DNA of 64,000 nt from Sarcomyxa edulis (taxonomy: Eukaryota; Basidiomycota; Agaricomycetes; Agaricales; Mycenaceae), in the NCBI GenBank assembly GCA_009761415.1, contig QUOL01000007.1, positions 1,240,001-1,304,000 of the forward strand, read 5' to 3'. Numbering within the stretch: the stretch's first letter is position 1; each line of letters opens with the position of its first letter. Made by a program: the position numbers and the translations under genes. Shown here in pieces: positions 9,647 to 31,947 of the stretch. The notes under the pieces are model-generated. The model made no database searches and was not told where the DNA came from. It saw nothing but the letters and a program-made list of their open reading frames with translations.

Positions 9647-9730
9647 TTATACGTTTACTCTCACGTAGGGGCCTATTCCACCCAGCGGTTCTGGAATACC
9701 CGACATTTCAGTGCTCAGTATATGACGACT

Positions 9731-10867: not shown

Positions 10868-10909
10868 GGGTCGTTGGATGCATTGTACACCGGCGTGCCA
10901 TTGCTTGCG

Positions 10910-11684: not shown

Positions 11685-11999
11685 TATGCATGTTATTTAC
11701 TGCGGTGACCGTCTACGTTGGGCGTCGTTCGGACGGTGTCTCGTCGTTTGCCTTATACGATGTCTACGTACTCTTCTGCAATAAACTTACGCTGGCGTTT
11801 GTATTTCTGATGGTCTCGAGTGTTCAAACCGGGTTTTCTTAACACGAAGCACTGGTTCAAAATCATAACCTAGCGGACAAGCAAGTATAATACCATGTAT
11901 AGAAAAGAGTGATTGTATATATGTCAGATATAGGAAAAAAAACCGGACAAAAGAGTGTGGGGTACACCTAATGTGACCGATGGAAATGTTGCGATCGTT
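11685..11999. other. Intergenic, convergent gene ends
   Basis: The 3' regions of the SKP1-like gene (plus) and F-box/NTase copy 2 (minus) meet here. No coding frame, repeat or RNA gene is seen. Confidence 0.4.
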
Positions 12000-12968: not shown

Positions 12969-13644
12969 GTCGAGTGATACGATCGATATCGACGGATCCG
13001 TGTTGAGGCCGATACGATCTATATCGACGGGTGCGAGGGCGAGGGCGAGGGCGAGGGCGACCCAAGACCGACCACAGACAAAGAATGAGATAGCGTCTAA
13101 GTACTGGTAGGGCAGATCGCCGGATAATTTACCGTCGCAGGTGTCACGCAGTCACTGGTATGGCCACTCGACTATGGTTCTTTCACGTGTGGACGCGCTA
13201 CTACGTTCTATTTTTAGCCTTAATACGGATTGAGGTTATATGTGAAAAAATTTACCGCAACGTGCAGATGTGAGGTATTCATGGTATAGTTTGTATCGGA
13301 ATTTCAAGTGTGATCGTGCACGGGGATAATGCGGGCTCACGGGGCGTAGTAGGGAACGACATATCGTAGATGGTGTATGTGTGAGGCTGAGGGTGGCACG
13401 AGACACATAGAGACCGGCAGAGTGATGGAAGAGGAAATAATAATATGACAAGATGTGGGTGGTAGGGGCGATACACGGGGTGACTTTTAATAGCGGGCGA
13501 TGCTGTGACGCGCCCTAGGAGTCTCGGACTGAGACCCGAATTCCGCCCTATGGTTTGCTCGGCCGTACTTTGTCACATTAGACCGCGGTCTTGCAAGTTA
13601 CATATTCCGTCGTTCGAGCCTCCACTTTTTTTTTTGTCTTTAGC
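12969..13644. other. Intergenic region with GAGGGC minisatellite
   Basis: Carries a short GAGGGC repeat (13035-13060) and a small inverted repeat (GTCTC/GAGAC) near 13530. No convincing gene on either strand. Confidence 0.4.
13035..13060. repeat. (GAGGGC)n hexanucleotide repeat
   Basis: Four perfect copies plus a partial, 66 bp upstream of the start of F-box/NTase copy 2. It could be length-variable between strains and lies where the promoter should be. Confidence 0.75.
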
Positions 13645-15657
13645 ATGTTCGCCGAGCATCCTCCTAGGTTCAAGGTAAAGGATATTGTGGTCCTGCTCCT
13701 GTTTGTAAATCGTCCTGATTCCAGTCCAAGATCGGTGATTATGTGTGGAGACAAGAAGGATTGTCTCATACGTGGCACTGGGCAAAGGTCAATGCTATTC
13801 ACCAAGAGGAATACATGGTAAGTTTGCTATATTAGCTTGCTATTCTACGCCTGACCGGCAAAATCCAAAAACAGTCTATCATATCATGGGCATATACTGT
13901 TTGCGCCCTCTCGGGTTTCTCGATCTACTGTCTGGAATCAGAGCTTCGTGACCGGGGATATTTCCTATCTCAGATTTCCAAAAAGAAATGCAAGGTCTGG
14001 GCGGAATAAAATAGCAGTAGTATGTTTCTAAGTTGAGCTTCTCTATATGAGCAGAACAAGCAACACTATATGTAATTGTGTGTAGTAGGGATGAGACGAA
14101 TACAGAATCCTATGTATACAAGTTTGTCGGCGATTGTTACTATTTGGATTACTAGGGGACGGCCTTGTACGTCTGAAACCAAACAAAGTTGTCTTCCGTG
14201 TCTAGTCCCAATTCTATTCTAAACTCTTTAATCGTGTCGCGCATCAATATGTCAGAATCTGGGTGGTCTCTTATACTGGACATTTACATACTTAGAGGTA
14301 CAGGCTTTGGTTTTTGCTGCACGATTCTGACGATCAAATAAACAGGATATGCTCTTGCATATTGTACTCCTCATATGCCGCTGGGAATCATTTTGTCGAA
14401 CCATGTTCTTCAATCAACAGGCTTACGGTGTAGCTCTTTCGATCTTATGAAACGGATTCTCGATATTGAGTATGCTGTAGGAACATCAAATTGTACGTCT
14501 CGCTTCACATTTTTTTTGGTCTAGTTCTAACTTGAGTGGTCTGGTCGCATAGTGGATATATTACTCTTTCATGCAGTTCGGTCGCCATTGATCTATAACG
14601 TAACTTTGCTCCACAAATGGACTCAAATTGATGATCCCGTCAAAGCTGTTGACCTGGGATATGGTGTTGGTCCAAATCTATTCTTATACACCCCCAGTGT
14701 GTTACGAATCAAAAGGGAGGTCCGAGTCAAATCGACGGAAGATGCACATAGATTCTCATACGTGCGTACAATTCTGTATCTGTTTCTAGCTGCTTCTGAC
14801 CGTTTTGCATACATAATATTAGATGTACGATATGAAGTATGTACATATAGATCCTCAGGAGTTGTGTCCTCCGCAGTACGTCGATTTCTTCTGTACTCAG
14901 TTGTGAGATGAAATCACATTATATATGTCAGCTTTGAGTTACCCATAACATGGATATACGGTAAACCGATAACAGTCAACCTTCGCGCCTATAATCACAC
15001 TACCAATACTCTGCTGTGCAATGAAGTTATAACACTTTCACATAGAAATATTCCACATCAAAATACACCCTCACATCAGTCCGTATTACGAACGGTTCCT
15101 GTTTCACCAATGTTTTGGCCTGTGTTATGTTCCTATGCAGGTATCTTGTCTGATTTTGTTCGATATGAGCCTCTATTCTGATTGATTACCTGCTACATTC
15201 AGATCTGTCGTGCCTTCATATTGAAGAGGACATTGCAATCTGTGTCGATGGTACGAGTGTCGGAATGACTATTGTTTCGTCAAATATCTACACTTTTGAA
15301 TGGTGTACTCCATCGCCATTCAGTCGCGGTCTTACGCCACAGGCAAATAGTCGATCTATGTGTTCATTTGATGGTGTACTGGTACGTCTCTTCACTCTCA
15401 TGGGCTTCGGCCAAGTTGAACTTATTTTGTGAGTTTGCTTAAAACAGTTGGAGGCTTTTGTCCGAGATGCATCCCAGTTTAGGTTGAGTAGTCATGGGAA
15501 GCCTACACTGTTCCGCACAAATGTATTGGCACAAACATTTTGCAAACGCGCCGGTGGATCAGTTCACTCGGGTTGGGATTCACAGGCATCTTTCGTTACT
15601 GTAGAGAAAGCGAGGTCGTCTTGGGCATACGAAAGACGTTCGGGTGTACAAATTTGA
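13645..15657 (+). CDS. Unrecognised multi-exon gene (partly delineated, may be two genes)
   Basis: A chain of exon-like open segments on the plus strand. Exon 1 (13645-13817, MFAEHPPRFKVKDIVVLLL) splices in phase to 13875 (LSYHGHILFAPSRVSR). Later segments lie at about 14344 (YALAYCTPHMPLGIILSNHV), 14551 (DILLFHAVRSPLIYNVTLLH), 14932 (FELPITWIYGKPITVNL), 15205 (DLSCLHIEEDIAICVDGTSV) and 15448-15657 (LEAFVRDASQFRLSSHG, stop). Most have GT and AG neighbours. I recognise no domain. The stretch 13980-14340 does not connect clearly, so the first two exons may belong to a separate gene. Confidence reflects coding character, not the model. Confidence 0.35.
14152..14283 (-). CDS. Small minus-strand open frame, possible terminal exon
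   Basis: A 43-residue frame, MSSIRDHPDSDILMRDTIKE... to ...NFVWFQTYKAVP, with strongly protein-like composition (amphipathic helix then aromatic segment). It lies opposite the unclear gap of the plus-strand gene. It may be the last exon of a decayed minus-strand gene; no upstream exon was found. Confidence 0.25.
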   Translation of the reverse strand: MSSIRDHPDSDILMRDTIKEFRIELGLDTEDNFVWFQTYKAVP

Positions 15658-15980
15658 TTAGTTCCTCCCTTGATTGTCTAGAAATATAAATACCAACAGA
15701 TCATCCCAAGTCGTTGCGAGTTACTTAGGTCTTTCACAGGGCGTTCTTGAAAGATCTTACGTGACTGTACACTTTGGTAACCCCAAGCGGGCTGCATTTT
15801 TGTTAATCAAATCTTATGACTGAAACATTTTTTAATTTACATTTCTCTATGGTGCTACGTGCAATTCTGTGTTTCTGCTTCTAGGAATAAATTGTGGTCA
15901 CTTATTGTTGACCGTTGGGTGTATATACAATCGGTGAAATCTATCGCCTATGGACAGATCGTTTATCTGTAGGATAAGGA

Positions 15981-16887
15981 TCAAATCGGGATTTTGATAG
16001 TGTAGACAGTCTTTGTTGCCAAAATTCCGAGGCTGAATGAAAATGTTGTAGATTTAGTGCTAATACGCTGCAATATATAGCTTGCTACGCACCGTGTGTT
16101 GGCCTGTTGTAATGTTGTGACGTCCAGTTTGGGAATGAAGCATGATGAGCTTTGAGCGTCTTTTCTTTGGACTGTATAGGCATGGCAGGAGCAGATATAC
16201 TGGGATTGGAAATGCTGACAATTCCTGGTAACGACAGGGTTTACATGGAGTGGCACTGCAGGATGAACATGTGACGTACTGGAATATGCAGACTGCTCTG
16301 CCTCTAGTCTTGCCTGTTTTTCCTTCGCTAATTCAGCGGTCAACCTGGCGATCATCTTATCGGATGCATCTAACTGATATACAGCTATCAGGTATATGGT
16401 CAGTTATGATAATAGTATAGATATATATAAGTTGCTTACCTTCCACCATAATCTTAGTCCTGCTTTTGTCCCACTGCCGAACGCCAGGTGTGCTGTGATG
16501 ACGAGCGTGATGCGCCTTCAATCGCAGCTTGAGTCCTTTTGCTGCGACTGCTTGTGCTTCCCGCTCACCCGTTTTGCGTCTTGCCTCCTTGGGGTCTTTC
16601 AAGGGTTTGGGTTGGGACGCAGTATTGAGGGTCAAGGGGAAGTGTTCGCAGTCGGAACTGGAGGACGGAGGAGTGACAGTGTCGAGTGATTGGGGTGAGG
16701 GTTTTGGAGTGGAGTCAGACGTTGATGGAGTCGATATATCAGGTAAGAAGGTCGAATGGGAGATTGGAGAACCAGTATTGGTCGGAGTATCCGGATACTG
16801 GATGTATGGGAAATGTAGGAAAACAGGATTGGGTACACGTCGCGTTGAACTAGACGTGTTGGATGGATGTAAGGTGTCTTCGGACAT
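15981..16887 (-). CDS. Unrecognised basic/coiled-coil protein
   Basis: Start chosen at the internal ATG 16887 (MSEDTLHPSN), since the upstream part of the open frame looks non-coding. Exon 1 (16887-16440) encodes a Ser/Pro/Thr-rich N-terminus and then a basic helix (DPKEARRKTGEREAQAVAAK, KLRLKAHHARHH). A 55-nt intron (16439-16385) leads in phase to DASDKMIARLTAELAKEKQA, a likely coiled coil. Basic region plus coiled coil is reminiscent of a DNA-binding dimer, but the leucine heptad is not convincing, so I do not call it bZIP. The C-terminus beyond QQANTR may lie in a further exon. Confidence 0.45.
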
Positions 16888-17450
16888 CTTTGCTAGACTG
16901 GTAACGGCAAGGATATAGAATTCAGAGAAACTAGAAAAGCTGTGGACAAGCAGCGGTGCGGCGATAGACTGAGAAATGTCTTGCATTAGAGTACATCTTA
17001 TGGCTCTTTCTTCCTGATCGTTTAGCTGTAATTTGTCTGATGGGCCCAGCTCCCTTCTGTGGTCGAACCACACCACCATGCATCCCTACCATATCAAATA
17101 CTCTGCATGCGCTACCGGAATCTGCTGATAGGGACCTGAATGACCCATTTCATATCTACCACCTCTGACGGCAATACTGGCATTTTAATCTGCTGAATCC
17201 TGTCGTTTCACAGTAAGTTAACGACTGTGTGGTTCTGCATTCTAAGCAGAGGTCTAAACAATATGTGTATAATTATATGGTTATGGCTTCGCAAAATGAC
17301 CAGGAGGGGATTTGTATCTGTGTGTACCTAGAGTGGAATGGAATCCAGGTGTAGGCTGGTTCTATATCTCAGGCCCATGCATCTTACGGTCATGTGAAAC
17401 TGTTGTATTGTGTAAATAAGCACGACCTGGACCAATCGGCGGTAAGCATA

Positions 17451-17874
17451 TTAGATTACTATCATATTGGTCACATACCCAAGGCCGTCCTGTAAAGACT
17501 CCGGAGGCAACAACTCTTTTTGATAAGCTGACCCTTCTGTGTCTGGATTGAGATTGCCATGTACTTTGTCATATGGTAAGTAAGCTATAAACGGTGTACA
17601 CCAATTCGACGTTGATAGAGAGATGTATGCAAATACCAAGTTGGAGATGTACACCGTTGATCGGTTGTTGGGAATGGCACTGATGCGGTTCCTGGACGGT
17701 TGGACGGTACCCAGGCTCGGACTCAGATGCGCGCAAATCTCTTTTCCATGGGCTATCGAAGCTCGGTTCCCACTTGTCGGGCCGTGTTAGATGTCCGCAT
17801 GTTTTATCATCCGCCTTTATTTTTTGGAATTCAAACAAATCAGGCTGAAGTCTCTGTGTGGATAAGAGTGGCAT
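17451..17874 (-). CDS. Small hypothetical protein, 117 aa
   Basis: Two exons (17874-17655 and 17584-17451) join in phase across a 70-nt GT-AG intron. The protein starts MPLLSTQRLQPDLFEFQ and ends GLGYVTNMIVI. It is hydrophilic, rich in Pro, Glu and Asp, with no membrane segment. No family recognised. The neat splice and the protein-like sequence on both sides of the intron are the only support. Plus-strand frames in the same region (17700-18104) look like shadows. Confidence 0.4.
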
Positions 17875-18164
17875 GTGGAATATCCATCCCGATAAAATTC
17901 ACACGCGGACTTTGGATGATTTGTTCGTATTCTCGTTATATCTGGCGGTGGTCGACCATGCACTTTTTCCCATTGTGTTCTGGATCCCATCCACGTTGGA
18001 CAGTGGAGCTTCCGTCGCGAGTTTGTTGGAACGTGGTATATAGAAGTTACGTGTTTGTGCGGATGCCCATACGGAGATTGAAGGAACTTAATAAATCAAG
18101 TTGACTTGCAAGGAAGGTTTTGCTTCATCGAATCAGACTTCTCCTCATTGTCGTTGGTCTGAAA

Positions 18165-18528
18165 ATGTCTCGTGTATGGTTGAACGCAAGTATACGCTCA
18201 TAGCTGATCTGGATCCCTCGTTATAACTGATATTTGTTTGTGCAGTTGGGCAGTGTTGTGATGTATTGGAGCGCCGTCGGCGGAGTTCGGAACGGTCGCG
18301 TCAAGGAGATCGCTGTCCATTCGGATGTACGATCACCTTGTCTCTTTGAAATAAATTTCGATCGGCGCTTACGCACTTGCTAGGGCACCACCGTGCTAAC
18401 TATTGAGGATACTAGTTCTGGGCGACAATTGACAACCTTGTGAGTACCATTTTGTGTATGCTACACTTGCTAAGTTGTTTCGTCTACCTTTCAGAGCATC
18501 AGCCGTTATCCTCGTGCGAGACGAGTGA
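18165..18528 (+). CDS. Small Tudor-like (Hva1-type) protein, 59 aa
   Basis: Too short for an ordinary ORF scan. Four exons fit exactly: 18165-18173, 18246-18326, 18384-18439 and 18495-18528, all GT-AG and in phase. The product reads MSRLGSVVMYWSAVGGVRNG, then VKEIAVHSDGTTVLTIED, then TSSGRQLTTLASAVILVRDE. The pattern (a W near the start, G-x-V-x-E turn, a 'TIED-S-GR' strand, closing hydrophobic strand) resembles the small hypervirulence-associated TUDOR domain common in fungi. Only one barrel is encoded. Assignment is by motif shape from memory; function unknown. Confidence 0.5.
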
Positions 18529-18827
18529 GCGTGCGACTCACCGAAAGCGGATAGTCTAGATGTTGGTGTAAGGGACGGCGAATATGTTGGGAGATCTTCG
18601 CATCAGATTTGCAAAGTCAGAACTCGAAGAACGGGTGTTAACGTTGTACTACGATACAAGTACGATGGCTTCTTAAAATTTTGTTGAAGGTACTAGCGAA
18701 ACTAGTCGTCTTTCCTAGGTCTCCCTTGTGCTAACAGAAAGGTGCGGACAACTTTGACAAGATATAAGTATTTGCAGTCTGACATATTGTATCTGTTGAA
18801 GCCCGACTGAGCCCGTCGACGGTAATA

Positions 18828-20726
18828 TTGAATCTATCCGCCTGTCGCACGGTCGAAATGATGAACATCCCATTTCTCAGAGGAAACCGTTCCTCTCTTC
18901 GACACACAGTCTCTACTGGACTATCCTCGATTTACCGTCGTATTTCTCGTACCGTTGTCCCGCATACGCGCTCCTGTATTCCAGATGAGACGAACCTTGA
19001 GGCGCTGTTATATTGTGGTTTGGGTGGCACCGGGTCTGTGTGGCTACTTCTTCGCATGCCCCAGATGTCAACCGGTGAGCTTGTTCGTATCCGAGATGGG
19101 ATGGAGATAGTGTTATTCAATTGCGGAGAAGAAATCGGTTGTCGAGTATTGGGAAGGTACAGGCTGGAGCGGTATTGGGTGGTATACGCCATCGAACCCA
19201 AGGGTTCAAACTTCGCAGGCTGCGTCTTCCTCGCTGTACCCTACAAATGGGCTCGTGTCGGAATATTATCTACGATTCGAGGACGACTCCTACCTTTCTC
19301 TATCCGATATACTCTCCCAACTCTTGACGTTGCGAATGCCAGGAGTTCGGTACCAGTGTATTTGCAGGAGAATACAAGCGTCACGATTACATATTCTATC
19401 AACCTTTTTTATGACCTTGGGGATTAGGAAAATTGGTGCGGATTTTATATACACTCATCTATTGGCCTTCGAATGATTGTATTGTTTCTAATTTACTGTT
19501 CACCAGTATAGCGCGGACGTAGGCATTACGCGGATCTCTTCGTTCGTCTTACTGGGAGGTTGCGTGTGTATATGATGTATACTCCAGGGAATACATACTG
19601 ATTTCAGTCCGGAGGAGAGATCGGATGATGCATACTATCGGCTTGCTCTCGGCGATTCTTGATCGTTACTTCCATGATTCCTGATTGACTGTGTTTGGAA
19701 CAGATGCTTTACCCAAATACCGCATCGTATCGAGCCATTGCGTTCCCGTATCATGTTGCACGCAACAATGACTCGCACTGGATTTTATTTGTTCCAAGAG
19801 GCCGAAACATTATTATTGTGCGGTATGGCAACTGAGGCGTTACGGATTTATTGCTCATCGATCAGCCAAATCATCGAGAACGAACCGCTTACAGAGCTTC
19901 TGCCGGAAGTCCCATTTGTGGAGTGCCCCCGGGAGACGCTGATCTGCGTTTGGATCAATTTCAATAGCGTTTTCCGTGAGGCGCAAATATCCTCTACGCC
20001 AGGTTAGTCTTTCTGAACGTGTATCGAACTATACTGATTGGTTGCGGCTTGAAGAAACAACACAGGAAGCCATCGATCTACTGAACATGTTTAAGCCGAC
20101 TTCGAAGAAGACTCATCCTCGCTTCCGTACGCACGATGAGATTCGGCTTCTCAAGGCAATGCAGATATCTACGGGACTTACTTTGGGTCTAATGGCATGG
20201 GATAGAGGCGATCGTGCGACTGCAGGGAAACGATACTCCGAGTCTATTCGTATTGGATCGTTCTTTTCACCCGATTCTGTTTTAGAGGCGACACCCTTTA
20301 GTCATTGGGTGCGTACAGAACTCGATAGTCTGAACAACAATCTGGAAACATTACTTCGGATCGATTCTGATATCCACCGTTCTCGTATGGGCGTATCTGT
20401 TGAACGGAGGGACATGATAAACGCTAGGAATACCAGAATCGAAGGTAGTGGGCAGGTGTTGCGAAGCGAAGAACTTACTGTGGCCTCGGACGCTTGTACG
20501 AGATGCAAAAAGAGAAAGGTGAGGTTACAGCGATGCGCCGGTTGCGGAATGGCACGTTGTGAGTACGTTCGCGACTTTGCTCTGTCCAATTGCTGAAACC
20601 CCTCCTTTAGACTGCGATTCTAATTGTCAGAAGGAGGATTGGATGTGAGCAACCCAGAACATAGCACTAGCGATGCGGATGCTTATATACTTTATCAGGT
20701 CTCACCGAATGGCGTGTATAAGTTGA
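18828..20726 (+). CDS. MYND zinc-finger protein with TPR-like region
   Basis: A multi-exon gene of a class abundant in basidiomycetes. Exon 1 (18828-19178) splices over a 40-nt intron to 19219. A helical region follows (PEERSDDAYYRLALGDS, then FYLFQEAETLLLCGMATEAL, then GLMAWDRGDRATAGKRYSES), consistent with tetratricopeptide-type repeats. The C-terminal MYND finger is split over three exons. The first part is CTRCKKRKVRLQRCAGCGMA followed by RC. An intron precedes YCDSNCQKEDW, and a final 55-nt intron (20645-20699) leads to the last exon supplying MSHRMACIS and the stop at 20726. That last exon provides the His and Cys that complete the zinc site. MYND domains mediate protein-protein contacts; the partner is unknown. 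Confidence 0.68.
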
Positions 20727-21018
20727 AAAGATAGGCGCATCATGGCTACCGGGAATTTTGGCGTGTCTCAAGGTCAATTATGCGTGAGCGAGGTTGGGAG
20801 TTCCCGTTTCATTCATTGTATGCAGACAATTTGGCGACTAGAAATTGTATCTATCGATACTACACGTGAACGTTTAGGGTCTTCGAGATAGTATCTGGTC
20901 GAGCTGAGTGTTGCGTTGATGGCTCAGTGGATAAGTCATAACGGTAGCGCTCACAGCAATGCCTCTTGCAATGGGTAAAGGGCCGCACGTGGGCCATCAT
21001 CGTACAGTCGGTCTTGAG
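20727..21018. other. Intergenic, convergent ends of MYND gene and RNR small subunit
   Basis: No coding frame. A tRNA-like A-box string near 20920 was examined and not accepted. Confidence 0.4.
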
Positions 21019-22353
21019 CTACCCAATAGTCCGAACCTTCCTATCTAACACGTTTGGGTTTCCCCCCTTCAGATCAGATGAACTCGTTTTTGTGAACGGT
21101 AACTATAAACAGGTCGAAGCATAGAATGATCAGACAATTGTTCTACATACCGGATTCTCCGAATAGAATATTATTGGATATCCCAACATTCCCAACAGAT
21201 GGTCTGCGACAAATTCGACGTGTTGTCCTATGGTACTGGCATTTATACTTTTTAACGAGGTCGGCATTACATCTGTTGTATGGAAGATCATAAGCCAATA
21301 TTCTTCATATGAATAACGGGGTACTCACATTCTATGAACAATGTTTCAATCTGAACGGCTTCCCTGACCATTTGGCAAACGATGTCAGATGGAGGCTGCT
21401 GCCTGATGTATCCGATAAGCGTGCATGTAAAGCGTGCGTAGAAGCGCTCGTCCGTCGATATTAATTTGTTCGATTGGCATAGACCAGGCATGAGCCCTCT
21501 ACTCTTGAACCAGGATATTAACGCGAACGATGACGAAAAGAATAGTCCTTTGACTACTGCAAAGGCGGCGAGACGTGTAGCGAATATGTTCTGTCGGTCG
21601 TTGGTCCACTTCGTGAGCCACTCGGTTTTGACTTTGATGAACGGGGTTATGGACACGGCACTGAATAAGTTTTCTTGGTCTGCAATATCTTGTACGAAGG
21701 ACGATAGCAGAAGAGCGTAAGTCTCGGCGTGTATGTTTTCCCTGTGTTTCGAGAGCCCTATGTAAGCGTCCGTACAGCGACTGGGTAAGAATTTACATCA
21801 TGGTTTGAACCCCGTAAAAGCAGCGAGCTTCCGGAATTTGTATGTCAGACGATAGTCGTTGGACCAATTTGTCGTTGACGACACCGTTCGACGTTGCAAA
21901 GAATACTAGGATTCGTTGGATGAGACCTCTCTCGCTGTCGTCAAGTGTACGATGCCATTCGTGGATATCTCGCGACATGTCGATTTCCTCTGCTGTCCAT
22001 AATGAAGCCTCTGCTTGTTTATATAATTCCCATAGCTAACAGAGATGTGAGCTCCCGAAAGTCCTCTAGTCGGATCGGTACTCACCTCGTGATATTGTAT
22101 AGGAAACAACGCGAAGCGGGATATACAGGTTTCCAACGACGATTCTAAAATCCGATAAGTTTGCTCCGTGTTCTCCTCGAAATCTTCATTGACTATGATG
22201 TCCGATCTTCGAGGTGATCCCGTTCAGGTCAGTCTCCATTTCGATTTCGAGAGATGAAAACAACGAAAGTTATTACCTGGGACTTCTGTCCATTATTTCC
22301 ACGTCGCCCGTACTGCGTAGTTCTGCCGCCTTGCATTCAATTCGTACATCCAT
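21019..22353 (-). CDS. RNR2: Ribonucleotide reductase small-subunit (R2) homologue with defective metal site
   Basis: R2 subunits house the diiron-tyrosyl radical that drives dNTP synthesis. Six exons join in phase: 22353-22277, 22206-22086, 22035-21797, 21741-21329, 21272-21151 and 21102-21019 (351 residues). Conserved blocks include ISRFALFPIQYHELWELYKQ, AEASLWTAEEIDMSRD, QIPEARCFYGVQTMMENIH, FKSRGLMPGL and HVEFVADHLLGMLGYP. The radical Tyr (ENIHAETY) and the Glu and His of that motif are kept. Three of six ligands are changed: ATSNGVVN (canonical SDG, Asp to Asn), VVKGLFFS (canonical VEGIFFSG, Glu to Lys) and DERFYARF (canonical DEGLHCDF, His to Tyr). The C-terminal tail that docks on R1 is missing. 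This resembles yeast Rnr4, a ligand-poor partner of Rnr2. Introns are intact with no stops, so it may be a functional non-catalytic subunit rather than a pseudogene. Confidence 0.85.
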
Positions 22354-22423
22354 CAGTTTAAGTGCTGCAAAGGTGTTTGATTATGCTATCCTAATAAGCT
22401 CAGACAATGCGGCCCGTCTACGA

Positions 22424-23080
22424 TTAGTGTACGTTCGGGAAAGTCAGGTTGACTAACCTACTAAGTATAAGTCGGGCTTTGCTCTTAAGGTCTAGAAGCG
22501 AGTGAACCGGACACGAAAGACTCCTTTTATACTCACTTAGTATTTGACTGCGTTTCGGACGCGATGTGTCTGCGTCGAGCCGGAAGGGAACGATTTCCGA
22601 TAGTCGTTCAATGCGCGTCTGATCATGTGTGATTGGGACCCATATCTTGCTTGTGGCTCTGAAATGAACAAAGATTGTCGGCGGGAATGTTCGAGTAAAG
22701 ACGTTCGATCTCTGTGCAGGGTTTCTCGTCCACAAACTGAACAGTTTTGGACAAATCGTCGAATCTCAAATTATACACGTGATTTTATTGTCTGTATTTA
22801 AAGTCCGGATGCTCCAGCCTGATTCTCGTTATCCAGTTCGGTCTCTCAAAGTCATGAGCGAGTGGTGTAAGTCTATACATACGAATATTTCACGGTGCCA
22901 CACTGGACTTACTATGTCGGAACAACAGCCCAATGTGGGCATACCTCCAACACGGTACTGTCTAGTACGAGTCCAGCGCCTTTGACCAGATTGTCTGGAG
23001 GAGGTGCTTTAATCTTGTATCCTTCGATAGTAGGACATTTCAAATGGTTGATTTTGTTTGTCTACAGCTCTAGAATGTGA
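22424..23080 (-). CDS. Unrecognised gene, incompletely delineated
   Basis: Exon-like minus-strand segments: 23040-22940 (LKCPTIEGYKIKAPPPDNL, then VKGAGLVLDSTVLE) and 22690-22530 (PPTIFVHFRATSKIWVPITH, then RLSEIVPFRLDADTSRPKRS). The last splices over about 45 nt to a final exon ending at 22424 (LNLKSKARLILSRLVNLTF). The middle (22740-22930) does not splice cleanly in any frame I tried, so this may be decayed. The ILLE-V-W-V-P alternation is vaguely similar to the 30252-31607 gene, not enough to assign. It ends 70 bp upstream of the RNR small-subunit start. Confidence 0.33.
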
Positions 23081-23210
23081 TATGTTCGTCGGTACTGAGG
23101 ATTCCGATATTCTTTCGAAAGGTGTGACTTACCGTCCTATTCGATTTGATCGTTATACTGACAGTATTTGTCTTTGTTCCTCTCCGCTTGTTGACTGATT
23201 TTGGGCTCCA

Positions 23211-26200
23211 GTGTTCATGTTTACTAGGCTGACCGCTGGACCCGATGGCAAGCAAAGTAGAATGGCGATGACGATTCCTGTCCATCGTCTAAACAGTAAT
23301 TACGACTACCTGTCCTGCTATCGTGACTCGAATCCCACGGATGTGCTCGGGGACGAGCGAAATCTCGTCTTGACTGTGTTTCCTTCTGAACTTGTGAAAT
23401 GTTTTCGGTTCATTCAACTGCGCGAGCTTAAAAGGATATGTCTGTTCCATGGAATCAGTACAGGAAAGACAGTTAGATTGGAAGACATACGCACTTCGAT
23501 ATTGATGCATGAATGTGTGTCGTCTTGTTCGGGGGTTACCTATTCGTTTCAAGAACGTCCGAGGGCGAGAACAAACATTGAGTGGAGGTTTATAAGCGGG
23601 GTAGTGGATCCGTCTTCGAGGAGGAGACAGGAAAGGTCGCAAGCTGCCAAGACTGCTGTTCCCGACGTTGACGCCGACCTTGGTGACGAATCTGATACTG
23701 AAAATGATGAAACTTATGACCCTCTCGCCATCGCGTCCGAGGACCTCCGATATTCCATCATTGACGAGTGGCAGACGTCGATGTCATCTTCGTCGATGCG
23801 TCGCAGAGGTTGTGCTGTCTGTGCACGGCTGACTCCCGAGTCTGCAATGGAAAGGTTGAACGCCTCTTCAGTGCCCCTAGAGTTGCTGAGGAATACCGAA
23901 CTTCCGGGACATCTTCTCCCAACCGAGTATGACATTTCGGCATATGATATGGCGATCCTGCACCCTCCTGGGTTGTCGAAAAAGAAGAGTAAAGGCTCTC
24001 TTACGGTGTGTCACGAATGCGCTCATAGCCTACGCAGGCACGTGTTGCCTAAGTTCGCTCTCGCAAATTGGTTGTATTATGGACATTCGGTTCTTCCTGC
24101 GAAAGTGAAGGCCGCCTTCGACGATGTGTCTCCCTTTGACTTGATGTTGGTAGCTCGAGCAAGAGCGAGCAACATATGCTTCCGATTCGGCTCGTATTTT
24201 GGAATCGAAGATGATTCTGAAGGAGAAACAGCTCATGCGGCGTCAAGGGCGAGGAAGGGTGTCAGAGGAAATGTGATGGTCACCCCTTTGGATGCTGCTA
24301 GATTGAGCACGGTTCTGCCTCCGGATCTGGATAGCATTGCGGATACTGTGTGTGCCGTCTTCGTCGGCAAAACTATGCCTTCTCGAGCGTCGATCGCAAA
24401 GTTGGGTCCTGTACTTGTCAGGAAGAGTAGAGTGAAAGTCATGATTGAGTTCCTGTTGCAAGAGAATCCTCATTATCGGATTGTAGACGGATTCCGGGGG
24501 TTTAGCGCTGAAAATTTGAACCGTTTATTCGGAAGGAACAGTGACGATGACGAGGGTGTCCCAACTTCTATGGAAGTTTGTCACTTGCCGCTCAACGACG
24601 CCGTGGAAAGTGCTACGTCTGATCACACACTCCGGAATGAATACGATGCCGGAACGGGTGGTATCCTTATGGAGAATGTGGGTTTTACTATGGGTGACGA
24701 CACGCCGCAGGGATATAGGGAGATGAAGATGAAAGCTTTAGGGCACTGCTTGAGTGGTGGGTTATTTGTATCGTCCCGTCGTGGGACTCAACTCGTACCA
24801 GATTTTGACAACCCATATCTGCTGTCCTGGCTGTTCCCTCACCTAGATCCTTGGGGTATCGGAGGGTTCCATCACCCGAAGCGGCGTGTTCCTATTTCCA
24901 TGGACGAACAGTTGATGCACTTGCTTCAGCTTGAGGGAGGGCGCTTCGAGAGGGATCCTGAATTCGCGTTCGTGTATCATAACATTAGACAAAAGAAACT
25001 GGTCTCTCAGAATGTTCGGTTCAGAGTTCCTCAAAATCGATACAGTCAAATCATCAAAGACTTACTGGATGTGGACGTGGACAGACTTTTCTTGCTACAG
25101 AATATGTTCAAGAAGAATCCAGCGTATCGGCCAGTAGACGAGAAGGACAATTCACTGGTTAGGCTTTTAGCGCACGTCAATATGGTCGGAAGCAACATTC
25201 CAGGTAGCGCTGCTTACAAGGTATCCTTGCGAAACGAGATCAGGGCTGTCATCAATTACAGGGGTACCCCGACACTTTTCGTTACTCTCAATCCTTCTGA
25301 CGTTGACCATCCGCTGGTGCGATTGAATGCCGGTCATGATATCGATCTCGATGACATCGCCCGAGGAGAAGATCTCGACAAGTGGAGTAGAATGCTTCTT
25401 GCAGCAAAAAATCCATGCGCGTGCGCGTTGTTTTTTGATAGCATTATTTCCAGTTTTGTTTCGGTCGTCTTACGGGCTGGGAGCAAACGTGGAGGTCTTT
25501 TTGGTATGTGCTCGACGTACTACGGGACTGTCGAGGCAAATGGTAGAGGGACTTTACACTGCCATATGCTTATATGGCTGCGAGGACATCCTTCTCCCCA
25601 GGTCCTCAGAGACCGTATGAACGAATCTTCGGAATACAAGGAAAGGACGTTCAAATGGTTGGAATCGGTTATCAAGTGCGAACTTCTTGGTACAGAGCAG
25701 GCCGTGATAGAGAGATCGGGGCCTCTTCCTCGACCTAAGAGGAGTTTGGAGACCGGAGACCCCCATCCAGGCACAATTCCTGCGCCTCTGGTCAAGGACA
25801 TGGTTTCTAAACGTCAGTTCGATATAGATTTCGAACAGTTCGTAAATTCCCTTGTGAAGGAGTACAACTGGCACGTCCATACGTCGTCCTGTTGGAAGCA
25901 CCTGAGTCGACAACAAAAACGCGATGACCACAACTGCCGGATGGGTATCGACGGTCATACGTTGTCTGCTACTGTTTTAGATCCCGATACCTTTTCGGTC
26001 CTTTTGAAGAGACTTCATCCGCGAATTGCGGCGTACAATGACGTCGTAATCTTCCTGGTTAAATGCAACATGGATATCAAATTTATTGGTTCAGGGGAAG
26101 CGGCTAAGGCTTACCTCTACTATATCACGGACTACATCACAAAGCCTTCCTTACCCGTCCACGTGGGATTGGCTGCATTGTCATACGCTGTGAAGAAGAC

Positions 26201-29051
26201 CAATTCAAAATTCCCCCGTCCCGGAGGAGATGAGGACTGTTTGCCTGAAGGGTACCGCAAGAGCACCATGATTATTACTGTCAACAGCATGATGGGACAT
26301 CAAGAGATGTCTCACCAACAGGTCATGAGCTATCTAGTTGGGGGTGGAGACCATTACACGCCAGACATATTCCAGACATTGCATTGGGGCGCGTTCAAAG
26401 CATTGGCGAAGCAGTATGACGATACGTCATCGCTCGATGGGAACGGGAACGTCGAAGTGCCATCTGTAGTTTTATCTCTCGGAAGACGGTCCATTACTGC
26501 ATCGAATCAGGTCCTCGATTATATGTTTAGAGGGAGAGAGATTCCTTTTGACGGCATGTGTCTATATGAGTTTGTTGAAAGAGTAATAAAGGTTTCTCTC
26601 CCAGAGTCGTCCAGAGAACTTATCCGCGCTGGCTATAGAGATTCACTTGGTAGAATTTCGGGCGCGTTTTCTGGTCCAGATCATCCTCAATACGACAGCC
26701 ATGTCCTCCGTTTGCGTACCCGGTTCAGTATACCCGTCATCCTAGGTGATAAGATATCTCGAGCCACTGGTGGAATCGATGAATTAGAGTTATGGTCGCG
26801 AGACATTATGACACTGTTTATTCCGTGGAGAAGCATAAGCGGACTGAAACGAGAATATCACGACTGGACCCTTGCTTACGCTGGACGAAATGAAGAGATC
26901 AAACCGAAATATAAACGCATCATCCGGAATCTAAACGTGTTGTTGGAATGTAGAGATGCGCGCGGAGACCTTGCCAGAAAATGGAATGACGAACGAAGAA
27001 AAGACAATAGGAGGTTCGATGTGGACGACGCTATAGAGTCTATGCTCGGATTGGAAGACGACGCGCGAGTTAATGTTTTTGACGCATTCGGAGAAAATGA
27101 GCAGGGATCAGTAGAGCGCCGCGTCGATGAGACTATATCCGCCGAGCTCGGGACTAGAAACAATATAATGCTCGATTATTGTCTCCGCTTGAACGACGTG
27201 TCTTCCTCCTCGCCACCCTTAGTGCGTCTGGGTGAAGTGTCGATGGTATTGGGGCAAGACGAAGAATATATAGCTGGTCAGTCGTCCGTCATGCTAGCTA
27301 TAAAACGCAAGCGTCGTCCTGAACATAATACGGACTCTTCGTTCGAACCTGCCCATCGAAGACCTCGGATAGCAGACAGTGAGGCTCGGGTCTATGTCGG
27401 CTCGGTAGACGCAAGTCAATACCACCCAGGATCAGGAATCGGGGGCGATGCTTTTGACGCACGTCGTACCAATCCGGACTGGAATATCGTTAACGAGGTC
27501 ATTGAAGAGATGAACATGAGTGCGAACTTTGAACAGCGTAGAGCCTTGACGATAATGGCTAAGACTATAATAGAGGGGGGACCCCAATTGCTGATGTATG
27601 TGGCGGGAGTAGGCGGAACCGGAAAGTCGCATCTGATTAAGGCTCTGGTGAAGCTGTTTCAAAAACTGAACCGCAGGGAAGAACTGCTTCTCGGAGCACC
27701 TACTGGAATTGCTGCTGTCCTCATAGGCGGTTATACTCTGCACGCTCTCAGCATGACAAACCCTCATAGAAAATCGAAGGAGATACAAGAGTTGATCTCT
27801 CTATGGAGAGGTGTTCGGTTCCTTATCGTGGACGAGATATCCATGGTGGGGTCGTTGTTCTTGAGCCAGTTCTCTTCTCGTCTGAAACAAGCTATGTCCG
27901 ACGACGCTGCTGCGTCTGGTCGACCATTCGGGGGGGTAAATGTGATTTTCATGGGGGATTTCGGACAGCTGAAGCCCCCTAGACAGCATTCGTTGTTCGC
28001 TTATCAACTTGTCGATAACCCTTCGTTTGAGGAGAGTAAGGATGATAAGGGAATCAGCGCTATGAATGGTGCCTTCCTGTGGAGACAGGTTAACGTGGTT
28101 GTGAAACTGACAAAGAATCATCGTCACCATGAAGATCCTGACTATTCGAACCTCTTAGATCGTATCAGGATGGGTATTTCGCGTCCTAATTCTTCTGTGT
28201 TTCTTAACTCCGCGTTCACTGATGATCTCGAGTTCTTGAGGTCGAGGGAAATCGGGCGTATAGTCGATTCCGATCCTGACTCTTTGCTGGCGTTCCGAGA
28301 TGCTCCTGTCATTGTGGGTAGCAGAGAGATTCGCGATGCTGTTAACGCCAAATACGTGATATTCCATGCTAGACGCCTTCTGCAAGCCGTACACGTGTAT
28401 CACTCTGTGGACTCTATCAAGCGCGCAGCGGTCTCCGGTGCTCTGAGAGCTAAACTTTGGAAAAAAAGCTCACGGGAAAGCAACGACTCTCTCGGACGAC
28501 TTCCTCTATTCTCCGGGATGAAGGTTATGGTCACCGAAAACATAGCGTTTACCAAAGGGGTTGTCAACGGCGTTGAAGGCGTCGTACATGACATAAAGTA
28601 TACGGTTGATCCGGAAGGTAACAGGTTTGCGTCCGTGGTATACATCCGCCTACCGGGCGTCGATATGGGAATACCTGGACTTGAGAGCGGGCTAGTTCCT
28701 ATTTTCCCTGAAACAACTACGTTCGAGTATAAGTATCAGACCGACGAAGGAACAAAAACTCGTACCGTCACTCGTAAACAGTTACCGATTCTTCCTTCTT
28801 ACTCGTATACCGATTTCAAGAGTCAAGGACGCACTCTCGAGCGGGCCATCGTTGACTTGAATACTGCGAGAGGACAGGGTGTATATGTGATGTTGTCTAG
28901 AGTGAAGTCAGCCAAAGGATTGGCCATACTGAGATGGTTTCCTGCCACAAAAGTCTATCAACGACCATCTGAGGATGTGAGGAACGAGCTGCAGCGCGTA
29001 GACTTTCTTGATTCGGTGACAAAGGAAGCTTATGACGCCGGACATCTCTAG
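23211..29051 (+). CDS. Helitron Rep/helicase transposase (RepHel)
   Basis: One uninterrupted frame of 1946 residues. Domains in order: an N-terminal basic/acidic region; a Cys-containing block (RGCAVCARL near 205, CHECAHSL near 270, LPKFALANWLYYG) as in the DUF6570 segment of fungal Helitrons; then the HUH endonuclease. Rep motif 1 is LFVTLNPSDVDHPL (about residue 690), the HUH motif is GTLHCHMLIWL (about 783), and the two-tyrosine motif is YLYYITDYITK (about 968). The SF1/Pif1 helicase follows: Walker A GVGGTGKS (about 1466), Walker B LIVDEISMVG, motif III GDFGQLKPP, motif V YTDFKSQGRTLE and motif VI YVMLSRVKSAKGL. All key catalytic residues are present, so the protein should be competent for rolling-circle transposition. 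No intron and no frameshift suggests recent activity. Confidence 0.95.
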   Translation: MFMFTRLTAGPDGKQSRMAMTIPVHRLNSNYDYLSCYRDSNPTDVLGDERNLVLTVFPSELVKCFRFIQLRELKRICLFHGISTGKTVRLEDIRTSILMHECVSSCSGVTYSFQERPRARTNIEWRFISGVVDPSSRRRQERSQAAKTAVPDVDADLGDESDTENDETYDPLAIASEDLRYSIIDEWQTSMSSSSMRRRGCAVCARLTPESAMERLNASSVPLELLRNTELPGHLLPTEYDISAYDMAILHPPGLSKKKSKGSLTVCHECAHSLRRHVLPKFALANWLYYGHSVLPAKVKAAFDDVSPFDLMLVARARASNICFRFGSYFGIEDDSEGETAHAASRARKGVRGNVMVTPLDAARLSTVLPPDLDSIADTVCAVFVGKTMPSRASIAKLGPVLVRKSRVKVMIEFLLQENPHYRIVDGFRGFSAENLNRLFGRNSDDDEGVPTSMEVCHLPLNDAVESATSDHTLRNEYDAGTGGILMENVGFTMGDDTPQGYREMKMKALGHCLSGGLFVSSRRGTQLVPDFDNPYLLSWLFPHLDPWGIGGFHHPKRRVPISMDEQLMHLLQLEGGRFERDPEFAFVYHNIRQKKLVSQNVRFRVPQNRYSQIIKDLLDVDVDRLFLLQNMFKKNPAYRPVDEKDNSLVRLLAHVNMVGSNIPGSAAYKVSLRNEIRAVINYRGTPTLFVTLNPSDVDHPLVRLNAGHDIDLDDIARGEDLDKWSRMLLAAKNPCACALFFDSIISSFVSVVLRAGSKRGGLFGMCSTYYGTVEANGRGTLHCHMLIWLRGHPSPQVLRDRMNESSEYKERTFKWLESVIKCELLGTEQAVIERSGPLPRPKRSLETGDPHPGTIPAPLVKDMVSKRQFDIDFEQFVNSLVKEYNWHVHTSSCWKHLSRQQKRDDHNCRMGIDGHTLSATVLDPDTFSVLLKRLHPRIAAYNDVVIFLVKCNMDIKFIGSGEAAKAYLYYITDYITKPSLPVHVGLAALSYAVKKTNSKFPRPGGDEDCLPEGYRKSTMIITVNSMMGHQEMSHQQVMSYLVGGGDHYTPDIFQTLHWGAFKALAKQYDDTSSLDGNGNVEVPSVVLSLGRRSITASNQVLDYMFRGREIPFDGMCLYEFVERVIKVSLPESSRELIRAGYRDSLGRISGAFSGPDHPQYDSHVLRLRTRFSIPVILGDKISRATGGIDELELWSRDIMTLFIPWRSISGLKREYHDWTLAYAGRNEEIKPKYKRIIRNLNVLLECRDARGDLARKWNDERRKDNRRFDVDDAIESMLGLEDDARVNVFDAFGENEQGSVERRVDETISAELGTRNNIMLDYCLRLNDVSSSSPPLVRLGEVSMVLGQDEEYIAGQSSVMLAIKRKRRPEHNTDSSFEPAHRRPRIADSEARVYVGSVDASQYHPGSGIGGDAFDARRTNPDWNIVNEVIEEMNMSANFEQRRALTIMAKTIIEGGPQLLMYVAGVGGTGKSHLIKALVKLFQKLNRREELLLGAPTGIAAVLIGGYTLHALSMTNPHRKSKEIQELISLWRGVRFLIVDEISMVGSLFLSQFSSRLKQAMSDDAAASGRPFGGVNVIFMGDFGQLKPPRQHSLFAYQLVDNPSFEESKDDKGISAMNGAFLWRQVNVVVKLTKNHRHHEDPDYSNLLDRIRMGISRPNSSVFLNSAFTDDLEFLRSREIGRIVDSDPDSLLAFRDAPVIVGSREIRDAVNAKYVIFHARRLLQAVHVYHSVDSIKRAAVSGALRAKLWKKSSRESNDSLGRLPLFSGMKVMVTENIAFTKGVVNGVEGVVHDIKYTVDPEGNRFASVVYIRLPGVDMGIPGLESGLVPIFPETTTFEYKYQTDEGTKTRTVTRKQLPILPSYSYTDFKSQGRTLERAIVDLNTARGQGVYVMLSRVKSAKGLAILRWFPATKVYQRPSEDVRNELQRVDFLDSVTKEAYDAGHL
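23211..29051 (+). mobile_element. Helitron (coding core; termini not located)
   Basis: The RepHel gene marks an autonomous-type Helitron. Expected ends (5' TC, 3' hairpin followed by CTRR, insertion between A and T) were searched by eye near the gene and not found with confidence, so the element may be longer than the coordinates given. Confidence 0.7.
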
Positions 29052-29181
29052 TATACGTGTCCCGACAATGTAATACGATCCAGCCCGCTTCGAGTCGCTT
29101 TTGGTATTGGTATCTTCTACCCTGAATCTTCTATAATGAAACCTTGTCATATATATGTAGAGTTAGTAAGAAGATTACTCA

Positions 29182-29872
29182 CTACCACGATACAGAACGA
29201 TAAGACGTTCGAATAGATGCTATTCTACTCTTGAGCCACCTTTCGATTATTTAGTATGCGCCGTACGATGTGTTGCGTTAGTACTTACAAGCCGATAATG
29301 ACATCTACCAAGTGTTTGTCTCCCCACTCCATTTGGATCACCCGTTTGGGATCCTTCTTGGAACACTTGAGCACTACTATGTTACCCATCCAGTGAAGGT
29401 TGTACAGCGTAGCCAAGGACCTGTTCGGGACAGATGATGTCTGATCCGCGGAGAAGAATAATACCATCTCGTTTCTCAAGGCGTAACTAGTTCTGGGGAG
29501 CCTGGTGAGGCGATGGCTCTGATAACCCAAGGGGAATAAGTCCGATATTTGAATGTCTTCTGCCCAGACGTGCGCGTCGTCCAAGTCTTGATCGATGGAA
29601 GCGACTAGGGTTCGGATGGTAGGTCCTCCTGTGGGAAAAATTGTGGTTTTGAATGTCTTGAACTTCGGTATTAGAATGTTAGTGACTCTGTACGGAAGGA
29701 TAAGATAGGACGCAAACTCCTCACTCCTGCGTTCTGGCTGGTTATTGATGAGTTTCTGGCATCTATATCGGCGTTGGTTATAGGTTTCTCGTCGATTTCT
29801 TGGCGGTTGCGCTGGAACAATGAGGCCGTCAAGTGAAACGGTCGGACATAAGTCATCTGGAATAGTTACCAT
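29182..29872 (-). CDS. 'LFPxGY' family protein, copy 1
   Basis: First of three paralogues in 29-35 kb. Two exons (29872-29289, 29239-29182) join in phase to give 213 residues. The N-terminal part is Arg/Gln-rich and variable. The conserved core has ISDLFPLGYQSHRLTRLPRT, then MVLFFSADQ...VPNRSLATLY, then WMGNIVVLKCSKKDPK and VDVIIGL. A final mini-exon begins with WL. Copies 2 and 3 have the same core order and the same phase-2 intron just before a 'W-L/I' exon, so these are descended from one spliced ancestor. I recognise no known domain; predicted soluble, beta-rich. Confidence 0.6.
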
Positions 29873-29879
29873 TGGAGGA

Positions 29880-30251
29880 CAATGTAGACTTCGAACGGAG
29901 CATCAAGTATGTCTCATCGTTTATATACAGAGGGACGGTCCCTTAGGAGACCCAATCGAACTGCGTGGTTCGTCGATGCGTCGAGTTTGTGTTCAGTTGG
30001 TAATTTTCGTCGAAGGCCGAGATTGATCGGGACCGATATTTTGTGCTATTTACCTAGACCCTCTTGCGGTCGGTTTACGGTCTGAGTATATATATAATTA
30101 TTATAACTCAGATTCTCCGGTCCGCTGGAAATTTATGAAGAACCAAATCTGTTGGTTTATTACATTCATGAAAGGCATAATCGAGTACATTTTAGTAACC
30201 TGATAGATGAGTATGGATGTTAAGGGGCTCTAGGTAGACATAAGGCCGGTT
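29880..30251. other. Intergenic between unknown genes
   Basis: AT-rich, no convincing coding frame. The short plus-strand frame 29820-30026 overlaps the neighbouring gene and looks like a shadow. Confidence 0.35.
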
Positions 30252-31607
30252 CTATTTCCCTTTGACTCTGAACATACGCTTCTTCGCTATTGGTTGACTG
30301 AGAACTGAATCATCCGCTTCGTCTAAGCTCCTCTTCTTCCCCGCGGAGGCTGATGATGACGATGCAGAGGCATTATCTGATTCATGTGTGCCGGATTCTG
30401 TGTCTGTGGGTTTCTTCGGGACAACTTCTCCGCTGGATACATTAGAGGGTTCTTCATCGATAGACGTATGCTCTGAATCAGATGCGTCATCATCTATGTC
30501 CTTATAGCGTTGAGTATATATCGTTTATATCAGGAAACGAATACTCACCGTCTGAAGGTGTGATCGCAGTCCCAAGCCTTAGAGGCGTCGCGCTAGGAGG
30601 GAACATGGACCCATCCGTCCTCGAACCGAACGCCGATGGCATGCTTCCGACACGAATCAGGTCTATTAATCGATACTCGGGACCCCAATTATCGTTGCCG
30701 ACAACGAAAGTCGCTGTAAATGAGAACCATATGATATCGCCTATGGCAAATTCGGGAGGGTCGCTGTCTTTTATGTCTATAAGTTTCCCATTCTCGTAGG
30801 CAAGAAGTCTAGGTCTGTCTGGGTTAGAAATCCACTTTGAATTGGCCGGTTCATCGAGTGCCGTCTGGATCCAAGGATGCACATCGTAAGGGACCCTGAA
30901 AGGTTGGCCCTCTCTATGATTGTAGGGCGATTTCTTCGAGAAAATGGGACTAGTCATGAAGAATCGTTCGGTATCCGAGGGTAGTTTTCCGTTCTGCCAC
31001 GACCTCCGAGGTTTGTTTCCTTTGTTGAACTCAGAGTTCTTGGATACATAGAGTTCCAGACCCTGAAGAGAGCGGACAGAAATATTCTGTCAGACAGTGA
31101 AACTCTGTAAAGGTCAAGATTCTGGATGTTTACCTGACCGAGTTTATACAGAGATTTATCGTCCGTCGTATCGAACGTATACGACAGTTCGCACCTGTAT
31201 GACGGTTGGTTCTGTCTATACGCGATGAATAAAATCACTTCCTGCGATGTGGTACAATATAATGGTAACTTACATCCTCGACTCTGTAACCCCGATTGCC
31301 CTTTCGTCCGGCGGAACGAAGTTTCCAGTCTCTAAATTCGATCCCCATCTCCAGAGGGCCGCGTGGACGAGTACTGCTGGAGTATTGGTACCCGTTTTGT
31401 TCATCTAGATGCTCGTTGTGAACGATTATCAGTGCATTGAAACGGTCCGCTTACAATCCATCTTGAGAGAACTCGTCCTGCCTTCGGTTCTATTAGGGGG
31501 GTATCGGTAGATAGTGAGTCTACTGCCCTTGTCAAGGATATGCCGTCTGGACGAAACCGCTTCTTATTCCATTTCGCCAGCGCCTCCAATATCTCGGGGT
31601 TTGACAT
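30252..31607 (-). CDS. Unknown protein with conserved 'GDIIWFSF' domain and basic C-terminus, 373 aa
   Basis: Five exons fit exactly: 31607-31455, 31404-31274, 31215-31134, 31062-30549 and 30493-30252, all GT-AG and in phase. The start is MSNPEILEALAKWNKKRFRP. The second exon gives VLVHAALWRWGSNLETGNFV. The large fourth exon contains PYDVHPWIQTALDEP, RPRLLAYENGKLIDI, and the core FAIGDIIWFSFTATFVVG...LIDLIRVG. The last exon is Ser/Glu/Asp-rich and ends with basic clusters (AGKKRSLDEAD, PIAKKRMFRVKGK) that look like a nuclear localisation signal. I believe proteins with a similar 'GD-V-W-F-F-...-IVRVG' core are frequent in Agaricomycete genomes, without known function. It shares a 340-bp divergent promoter region with the F-box/NTase copy at 31948. 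Confidence 0.62.
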
Positions 31608-31947
31608 ACCAATATAGCGATCAACTATTGAGACTTACCAGAGCGGCCTTCCAGTTCCTTTCTTATAGTGTTACTCTGTTCAGTGAGTGATCTAGTTTTC
31701 TGACCGAAACGTCGAATGCCTTGGTGGTGGTGTCTAGCAAATTTGGACGAGATGGTCTAAAATCGTTGCAGTAAAATGTCGTATAAAATCTGGACGGAAT
31801 GGTCAAATTCCGATCAACTGAGTAAGCACGACGATTTTATATCAGTGACTAGTATTTTGAGAATTACTCTCGAGCCATTTATAACGCATCTGTCAGTCTA
31901 TGTACTGCAGCGATAAGTTCCTTCGTCTGCGATTTGTCTGAAGGTCA

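Follow-up and report, generated by a model that had tools for sequence, protein, structure and literature searches.

The ribonucleotide reductase (RNR) small-subunit (R2) gene described here appears to be cargo of a giant Helitron2-type transposon with captured RNR genes, in which the R2 has come under relaxed constraint and the large subunit (R1) uses a foreign R2; we hold this combined reading to be probable, if only by a modest degree. The gene is located in a 64,000-nucleotide stretch of the Sarcomyxa edulis genome, which we refer to as the window (C38:1240001-1304000, in an assembly of 35.6 Mb and 40 contigs). A sequence-only reading of this DNA had given the coordinates of the gene correctly, yet the 40-kb element around it went unnoticed, and the R2 was taken for an independent non-catalytic R2. 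In that form the interpretation finds no support, since the gene is mobile-element cargo and one of five element-type R2 places in the genome; a lone host paralogue is rejected on account of the termini and the gene order that the elements share. The features of the window are listed in Table 1.

Table 1. Features of the element in the window (window positions; strand as read in the window).
Feature	Position	Strand	Remarks
Whole element, Helitron2-type giant transposon	9412..49424	.	40,013 bp; both termini found
Left terminus, beginning TGCCT..., with a hairpin (7-bp stem)	9412..9435	+	11 exact genome copies
Gene family A copy	9734..10774	-	
Skp1 homologue	11056..11586	+	two frames, taken as two exons; Skp1_POZ E 4.5e-5, Skp1 E 7.9e-16
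Gene family A copy; matches a nucleotidyltransferase fold weakly	12003..13151	-	
Conserved element ORFs, Cys-rich C-terminus	18783..20593	+	
R2 gene	21019..22353	-	six exons; D139N, E233K, H270Y, tail lost
R2 exons	22277-22353, 22086-22206, 21797-22035, 21329-21741, 21151-21272, 21019-21102	-	
Rep-helicase (DUF6570, Helitron_like_N, PIF1)	23199..29048	+	1950-aa open frame
Gene family B copy	29288..29902	-	
Conserved element gene	30505..31634	-	
Gene family A copy; contains SDLDIF	31942..33000	+	
Gene family B, two copies	33488..34663	-	
Gene family A copy	35257..36522	-	
R1 gene (modelled core and C-terminal CLAC)	37354..40084	+	homology model
Gene family A copy	40321..41389	-	
Gene family A copy	44607..45816	-	
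F-box-like ORF	48068..49009	+	E 8.9e-5, 22.6 bits vs cut-off 24.3
Right terminus	49392..49424	+	3 exact places: C8, C12, window

The spliced R2 frame runs in phase across five GT-AG introns of 48-70 nt (the last of them outside the aligned core, in the gene model) and encodes 351 aa, which match Ribonuc_red_sm of Pfam (300.6 bits, E 1.5e-89) and, as the top hit in the PDB, human p53R2 (E 8.8e-89). The canonical R2 ligands are D139, E170, H173, E233, E267 and H270 in mouse numbering. In a common alignment the window R2 has N, E, H, K, E and Y at these positions, so that three of the six ligands required of a catalytic class I R2 are replaced (D139N, E233K and H270Y), while E170, H173 and E267 are retained together with Tyr177 and Trp103. 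All six ligands and the Tyr are present in every one of the best 120 R2 homologues out of about 8000 candidates. The R1-docking tail, likewise characteristic of a catalytic class I R2, is gone: the protein ends in VRTIG*, and no [DE]F* was found in the three frames of the 600 nt 3' of the last aligned exon. The three host R2s and the two intact element R2s end in DEDF, EADF, EEDF, SEDF and EDDF, as read by inspection of the downstream frames, the last exon lying outside the gene models. With three ligands and the docking tail lost, the window R2 cannot, to judge by its residues, make its own cofactor, and it is expected to be unable to generate a radical alone or to transfer one. The sequence-only reading is thus borne out in its description of the gene, namely a six-exon, in-phase R2 of 351 residues with Asp-to-Asn, Glu-to-Lys and His-to-Tyr replacements, the radical Tyr and the E-x2-H motif retained, no docking tail and intact introns without stops (the frame is open and the model free of splice-site damage). 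The alignment with the canonical R2s of the same genome, which it had suggested, agrees with this, all three host R2s having six ligands and the window R2 lacking three.

Both ends of the element could be located by comparison of its copies. The left-end motif of 24 nt occurs exactly 11 times in the assembly and 14 times at ≤3 mismatches, whereas the reversed control pattern does not occur at all. It contains the hairpin CCTGGAC-TCTAAAGT-GTCCAGG-CA(T), and it is at this terminal hairpin that the copies on C3 and C20, 99.8% identical across 16,499 bp, diverge. The copies on C8 and C12 are 99.7% identical inward from the right terminus and separate there. The right end carries TGCCTGGACACT, the inverted repeat of the left end, set in by 20 nt; it is 12 bp long (49392-49403, about 20 nt inside the right end). 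The window has the left end (9412) and the right end (49392-49424) in proper mutual orientation. The base 5' of the left end is A in 4/5 copies read and G at C40:1.54M, and the right-end sequence is CTAT in 3/3 copies. A search of the assembly for an empty insertion site returned only the two flanks of the element themselves. A tandem pair of left-end motifs, spaced by 24 bp, occurs at C18:312003-312050, and the second of the pair has 3 mismatches.

Some relatives of the element are 99.7-99.97% identical, and the family must therefore have moved recently. The evidence comes from the C3/C20/C8/C12 set, which consists of near-identical copies at different sites, rather than from the window copy itself. 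The recently moved element measures ~38.1 kb when the C3 and C12 stretches are summed. These results refer to one genome, in which contigs break inside the recent copies and genes were modelled by homology. The gene order of the window element is common to C40:742-771k, C20, C36 and C40:1541-1571k, and to C3 by DNA matches; in C3/C20 the segment corresponding to window 30.5-33.0 kb is locally inverted. What appear to be relics lie at C4:140441-148386 and C4:259032; they consist of a RepHel interrupted by stops, a Skp1 and a fragment of R1.

Midway along the element lies the gene for a RepHel in which a Y2 Rep (HUH and two Tyr) and a PIF1 helicase are joined in one protein. Its HUH motif reads LHCHMLIW, its Y2 motif YYITDY and its Walker A motif GVGGTGKS; HxH and YxxxY are kept in the four long copies that were aligned, and distinct copies share 61-72% identity. 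None of the 8 Pfam families matched by the 1950-aa ORF is a Helentron-type endonuclease domain. The C36 RepHel is split across two frames, and C36 has no R1 match (PF02867). A second set of RepHels, mostly about 2670-2830 aa long, is present at C38:333k, C1, C10, C13, C22, C17, C21, C11, C4:650k and C34:685k and probably represents another Helitron family.

Helitron2 elements possess asymmetric inverted repeats, and the FoHeli3-5 elements of Fusarium oxysporum, ~9-11 kb long, carry no more than a single ORF in addition to the transposase (PMC5148889). Like them, the window element starts with TGCCT and a hairpin, has none at the other end, sets its inverted repeat inward and encodes a RepHel; the orientation of the transposase is variable in FoHeli3-5 and in this element family alike (PMC5148889). 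The asymmetric terminal inverted repeat together with a hairpin at one end only is the FoHeli3-5 arrangement (PMC5148889). The repeat is 12 bp long as against 13-16 in FoHeli3-5, and the two differ further in the sequence of the other end and in the 40-kb length, the R1, the R2, the Skp1 and the gene families of the window element (PMC5148889). By termini and RepHel domains the window element fits the Helitron2 kind, at roughly four times the length of FoHeli3-5. Among basidiomycetes, the Pleurotus HELPO Helitrons resemble it in carrying one to four captured genes; they differ in their size of 6.6-13.7 kb (six table rows) and in that the captured genes are of unknown origin, and the terms 'ribonucleo', 'Skp1' and 'F-box' do not occur in the HELPO text (PMC4289320).

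Besides the RNR genes and the RepHel, the element contains six copies of gene family A and three of family B. Family A proteins have a helical N-terminal part followed by a possibly degenerate nucleotidyltransferase fold, with an SDLD motif in one copy. The predicted structure has a mean pLDDT of 53 and is usable for residues about 75-246; its best PDB matches are to polymerase lambda (E 1e-3, TM about 0.2), so that the model gives only a hint of such a fold. The other conserved ORFs have no convincing Pfam match. Thirteen Skp1 matches were found in the genome, the best of which (C38:1035k) was taken as the host gene. Eight of the 13 (window, C3, C20, C4, C6, two in C36, and C40:1.54M) lie inward of an exact left end, at a distance of 2.0-2.2 kb, and 3/11 left ends (C12, C18 and C38:1.73M) have no Skp1 so placed. 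Within the F-box-like ORF, positions 48269-48615 are 68% identical at the DNA level to a stretch of C40. The presence of Skp1 together with an F-box-like protein hints at a possible interplay with ubiquitin ligases.

A genome-wide search with PF00268 recovered eight R2 places, three of the host type and five of the element type. The host-type genes L001 and L002 (C12:934608-940459) and L003 (C4:625k) retain all ligands and share the same two core introns; L001 is 91.6% identical to the R2 of Paxillus involutus, the best of 120 sequences listed. Two of the three host R2 genes are divergent neighbours, their matched parts lying about 1.5 kb apart. The element-type places (C40:746k, C3:29k, C20:262k, C36:1106k and the window) contain further introns and represent four distinct R2s, those of C3 and C20 being near-identical. 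Two of the four are intact, the C40 and C3/C20 proteins having all six ligands, and two are ligand-poor, the C36 protein having E170K and E233T, with its tail altered to end in TDTF (TTTDTF), and the window protein the three replacements given above. For R1, the PF02867 matches comprise L014 (C4:846k), taken as the host gene and 90.0% identical to the protein of Infundibulicybe gibba and 89.7% to that of Hypsizygus marmoreus, a fragment at C4:259k, and element places at C40:763k, C3/C8/C12, C40:1565k, C6/C14/C18 and the window.

The two core introns of the host R2s recur at the same residue and in the same phase in all four distinct element R2s. Six of the seven introns of the host R1 recur exactly in the five distinct element R1s, and the seventh is shifted by 1-6 residues, once in another phase, in a region where the alignment is loose. 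Two more introns in R2 and two more in R1 are shared by the elements alone, one of the latter being slightly different in C3. Because host introns recur in them, both element subunits appear to have been captured from the nuclear genome of a fungus. In a tree with 121 other R1 sequences, those of the elements group separately as a single clade (support 1.0). In a tree of seven R2 genes the element and host groups are split at 100, and the window-C36 pairing receives 39; in a tree with 188 fungal proteins the element clade is unplaced, the midpoint root falling inside it. Element-type subunits were sought in other fungi by three protein searches, in each of which the best 120 sequences were considered as proteins without genomic context. 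Among the best 120 of about 8000 candidates, identities to the window R2 are 43-51% and to the window R1 50-57%, with none standing out.

The window R1 keeps all seven catalytic residues (C218, N427, C429, E431, C444, Y737 and Y738), as do the R1s of C40:763k and C3. On its branch codon maximum likelihood gives an omega of 0.07 and rejects omega = 1 (2dlnL 13.4). Given its complete set of catalytic residues, the window R1 probably uses an R2 from elsewhere, most likely that of the host or of another element, acting in trans. Three of the five distinct element R1s are thus complete. The other two lack the catalytic N/C/E, which is changed to D/F/A (DPFAA) in L013 (C40:1563656-1567576) and to D/W/G (DPWAG) in L016 (C6; equal scores at C14 and C18); one of the two Tyr is changed in both. 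No CxxC was found within the first 300 nt 3' of either model, a single CIGC lying farther on in another frame of L016. L013 and L016 group together at bootstrap 100; their identity of 69.4% is similar to that of the live pair L009/L010. They differ at 0.464 of third and 0.145 of second positions, and their branches have an omega of 0.20, with omega = 1 rejected (2dlnL 215.6). The catalytic triad was most simply lost before the two separated, and the catalytically dead R1 would therefore have been kept by selection since. To judge by their sequences, L013 and L016 are R1 pseudoenzymes that are carried by transposons, and they are under clear purifying selection. The nearest parallel is provided by cytomegalovirus M45/UL45, catalytically inactive R1 homologues kept by a selfish genome; the comparison concerns these dead R1s of sister elements, not the window R1, and M45/UL45 come from an animal virus (PMC3497035).

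Constraint on the window R2 appears to be weaker. Its branch has an omega of 0.34-0.42 against a background of about 0.014, values obtained with saturated dS, branch lengths near the bound and a model without variation among sites, and omega = 1 is not rejected (2dlnL 0.6 and 1.3). The branch leading to the C36 R2, with two ligands lost, has an omega of 0.08-0.11 and does reject omega = 1 (2dlnL 14.6 and 12.1). Across 188 fungal R2s, 125 sites are ≥99.5% invariant; the window R2 keeps 94 of them and the C36 R2 92, compared with 111 and 110 in the two intact element R2s (L004 and L005) and 81 in Saccharomyces Rnr4. Where L004 and L005 share a residue, the window R2 has kept it at 85/113 invariant and 11/29 variable sites (p 2.7e-4). 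In a neutral simulation the window R2 stayed free of stops in 3.7% of runs at 115 substitutions and in 0.3% at 195; in a separate simulation 0/300 runs were stop-free. The open frame and the retention of invariant sites speak against the gene having been dead for long, and the ligand-poor R2s are not simply dead. Among 11 elements with an assembled Skp1-RepHel interval, five have an R2 (C3, C20, window, C36:1.1M and C40:0.75M, the last counted by its R2-RepHel neighbourhood, its nearest Skp1 being 24 kb off) and six have none (C40:1.54M, where tblastn also found no R2, C14, C36:13k, C4:1.16M, C6:9k and C38:1.76M). C34:3.5k, whose interval runs off the contig, and the relic at C4:140-148k were excluded from this count. 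Relaxed constraint on the window R2 is our cautious reading of these data; it is weakened by the open frame, by the invariant sites kept and by the rejection of omega = 1 for the C36 R2.

The history that we favour would be as follows. An ancestor of the element would have captured both subunits of a class I RNR from a fungal nuclear genome, and the ancestral R1/R2 pair, probably catalytic, may have provided dNTPs for replication of a long element where host RNR is low. Large DNA viruses supply dNTPs through an RNR of their own and offer an analogy. In the window lineage the R2 would then have lost three of its six ligands and the docking tail, while the R1, still complete, would pair in trans with an R2 encoded by the host or by another element. 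The window R2, its constraint relaxed, may be heading towards the R2-less state of the sister elements.

The strongest competitor to this history is a selected, metal-free beta-prime subunit resembling Rnr4, which would dimerise with a catalytic R2 supplied by the host or by another element and help the cofactor of that partner to form, the tail of the partner docking on R1. Judged from sequence, such a role is possible, with the balance of probability against it. Rnr4 itself cannot hold a diiron centre, yet the activation of Rnr2 requires it, and the dN/dS values tabulated for the two are 0.497 and 0.119 (PMC2704937). An omega near 0.4 therefore cannot separate decay from an Rnr4-like role, and the window value of 0.34-0.42 is indeed close to that of Rnr4 (PMC2704937). 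The open frame and introns, as well as the 94 invariant sites kept against 81 in Rnr4, are also consistent with a partner. E170K and E233T have arisen independently in the C36 R2, whose branch rejects omega = 1, and the window R2, the C36 R2 and Rnr4 have each gained a Lys or Arg in the metal site; an E-to-K change is, however, a single transition, and its recurrence is weak evidence. Against a partner speak the failure of the window branch to reject omega = 1 and the lack of an R2 in 6/11 elements.

The resemblance to Rnr4, which the sequence-only reading had put forward, is loose. Both proteins are ligand-poor R2 folds by sequence, with three ligands replaced, H270Y in common and Tyr177 kept. 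The remaining replacements differ, however, since Rnr4 (1jk0_B) has H173Y, E267R and H270Y and keeps the acidic tail INFDDDF, so that only one of three is shared and the tail is lost in the window R2 alone; the latter is moreover encoded on a mobile element, unlike Rnr4. The accompanying idea that ligand-poor partners are a yeast speciality does not hold, as Apicomplexa possess an R2_e2 clade and an R1/PfR2/PfR4 complex (PMC3824934). R2_e2/PfR4 is, like the window R2, a second R2, and is thought to complement the canonical one; it differs in forming a separate clade and in retaining the C-terminal motif (PMC3824934).

It is improbable that the window R2 is a plain recent pseudogene, functionless within a dead copy. 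Its long branch (0.61 vs 0.16 + 0.15 for the intact element R2s) and the loss of ligands and tail would fit such a state, as would the fact that the Helitron_like_N matches of the genome include no other copy nearly identical to the window RepHel, but the R2 and R1 models and the 1950-codon RepHel frame are free of stops, frameshifts and splice-site damage. An endogenous large DNA virus in place of a transposon is very improbable. Large DNA viruses commonly carry RNR genes and gene families, but the introns shared with host genes, the Helitron RepHel and the termini all speak for a transposon; no capsid or packaging Pfam match was obtained among the ORFs scanned (20 and some others, part of all), and the end motif has exact matches in 0 viral contigs. 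A viral origin is accordingly unlikely on the introns and the Pfam matches. Least credible of all, and already contradicted by the sharing of both element ends, is an ordinary host gene duplication adjoining an unrelated Helitron: the R2 does start about 0.85 kb from the RepHel frame, but R2, RepHel and other genes form the same neighbourhood in C40, C20 and C36, with the R1 in C40 and C3.

A broader proposition, which we regard as tentative and rather doubtful, is that in this giant Helitron2 lineage the RNR genes and Skp1/F-box genes serve as a fitness kit, and that the lineage has repeatedly made selected non-catalytic RNR subunits, with the window and C36 R2s as metal-free partners and the R1s of C40:1565k and C6/C14/C18 as pseudoenzymes. 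If true, a transposon would encode, in the window R2, an Rnr4-like subunit of independent evolutionary origin. Gene capture by Helitrons is already known, but in the open-licence literature searched we came across neither an RNR gene on a Helitron nor a Helitron2-type element of 40 kb whose conserved cargo of several genes comprises both RNR subunits. If the favoured reading is right, rolling-circle transposons of eukaryotes are able to carry a nucleotide supply of their own, as large DNA viruses do. With R2 intact, ligand-poor or absent and R1 live or dead, this genome provides a natural series in which the evolution of RNR subunits into pseudoenzymes can be followed; the window R2 by itself is of less interest than the element and the dead R1s. 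Outside the element, the window contains a calcineurin-like phosphoesterase ORF (49949-50896, minus strand) and an ORF with a starch-synthase domain (58300-59970, minus strand), both recognised by Pfam.
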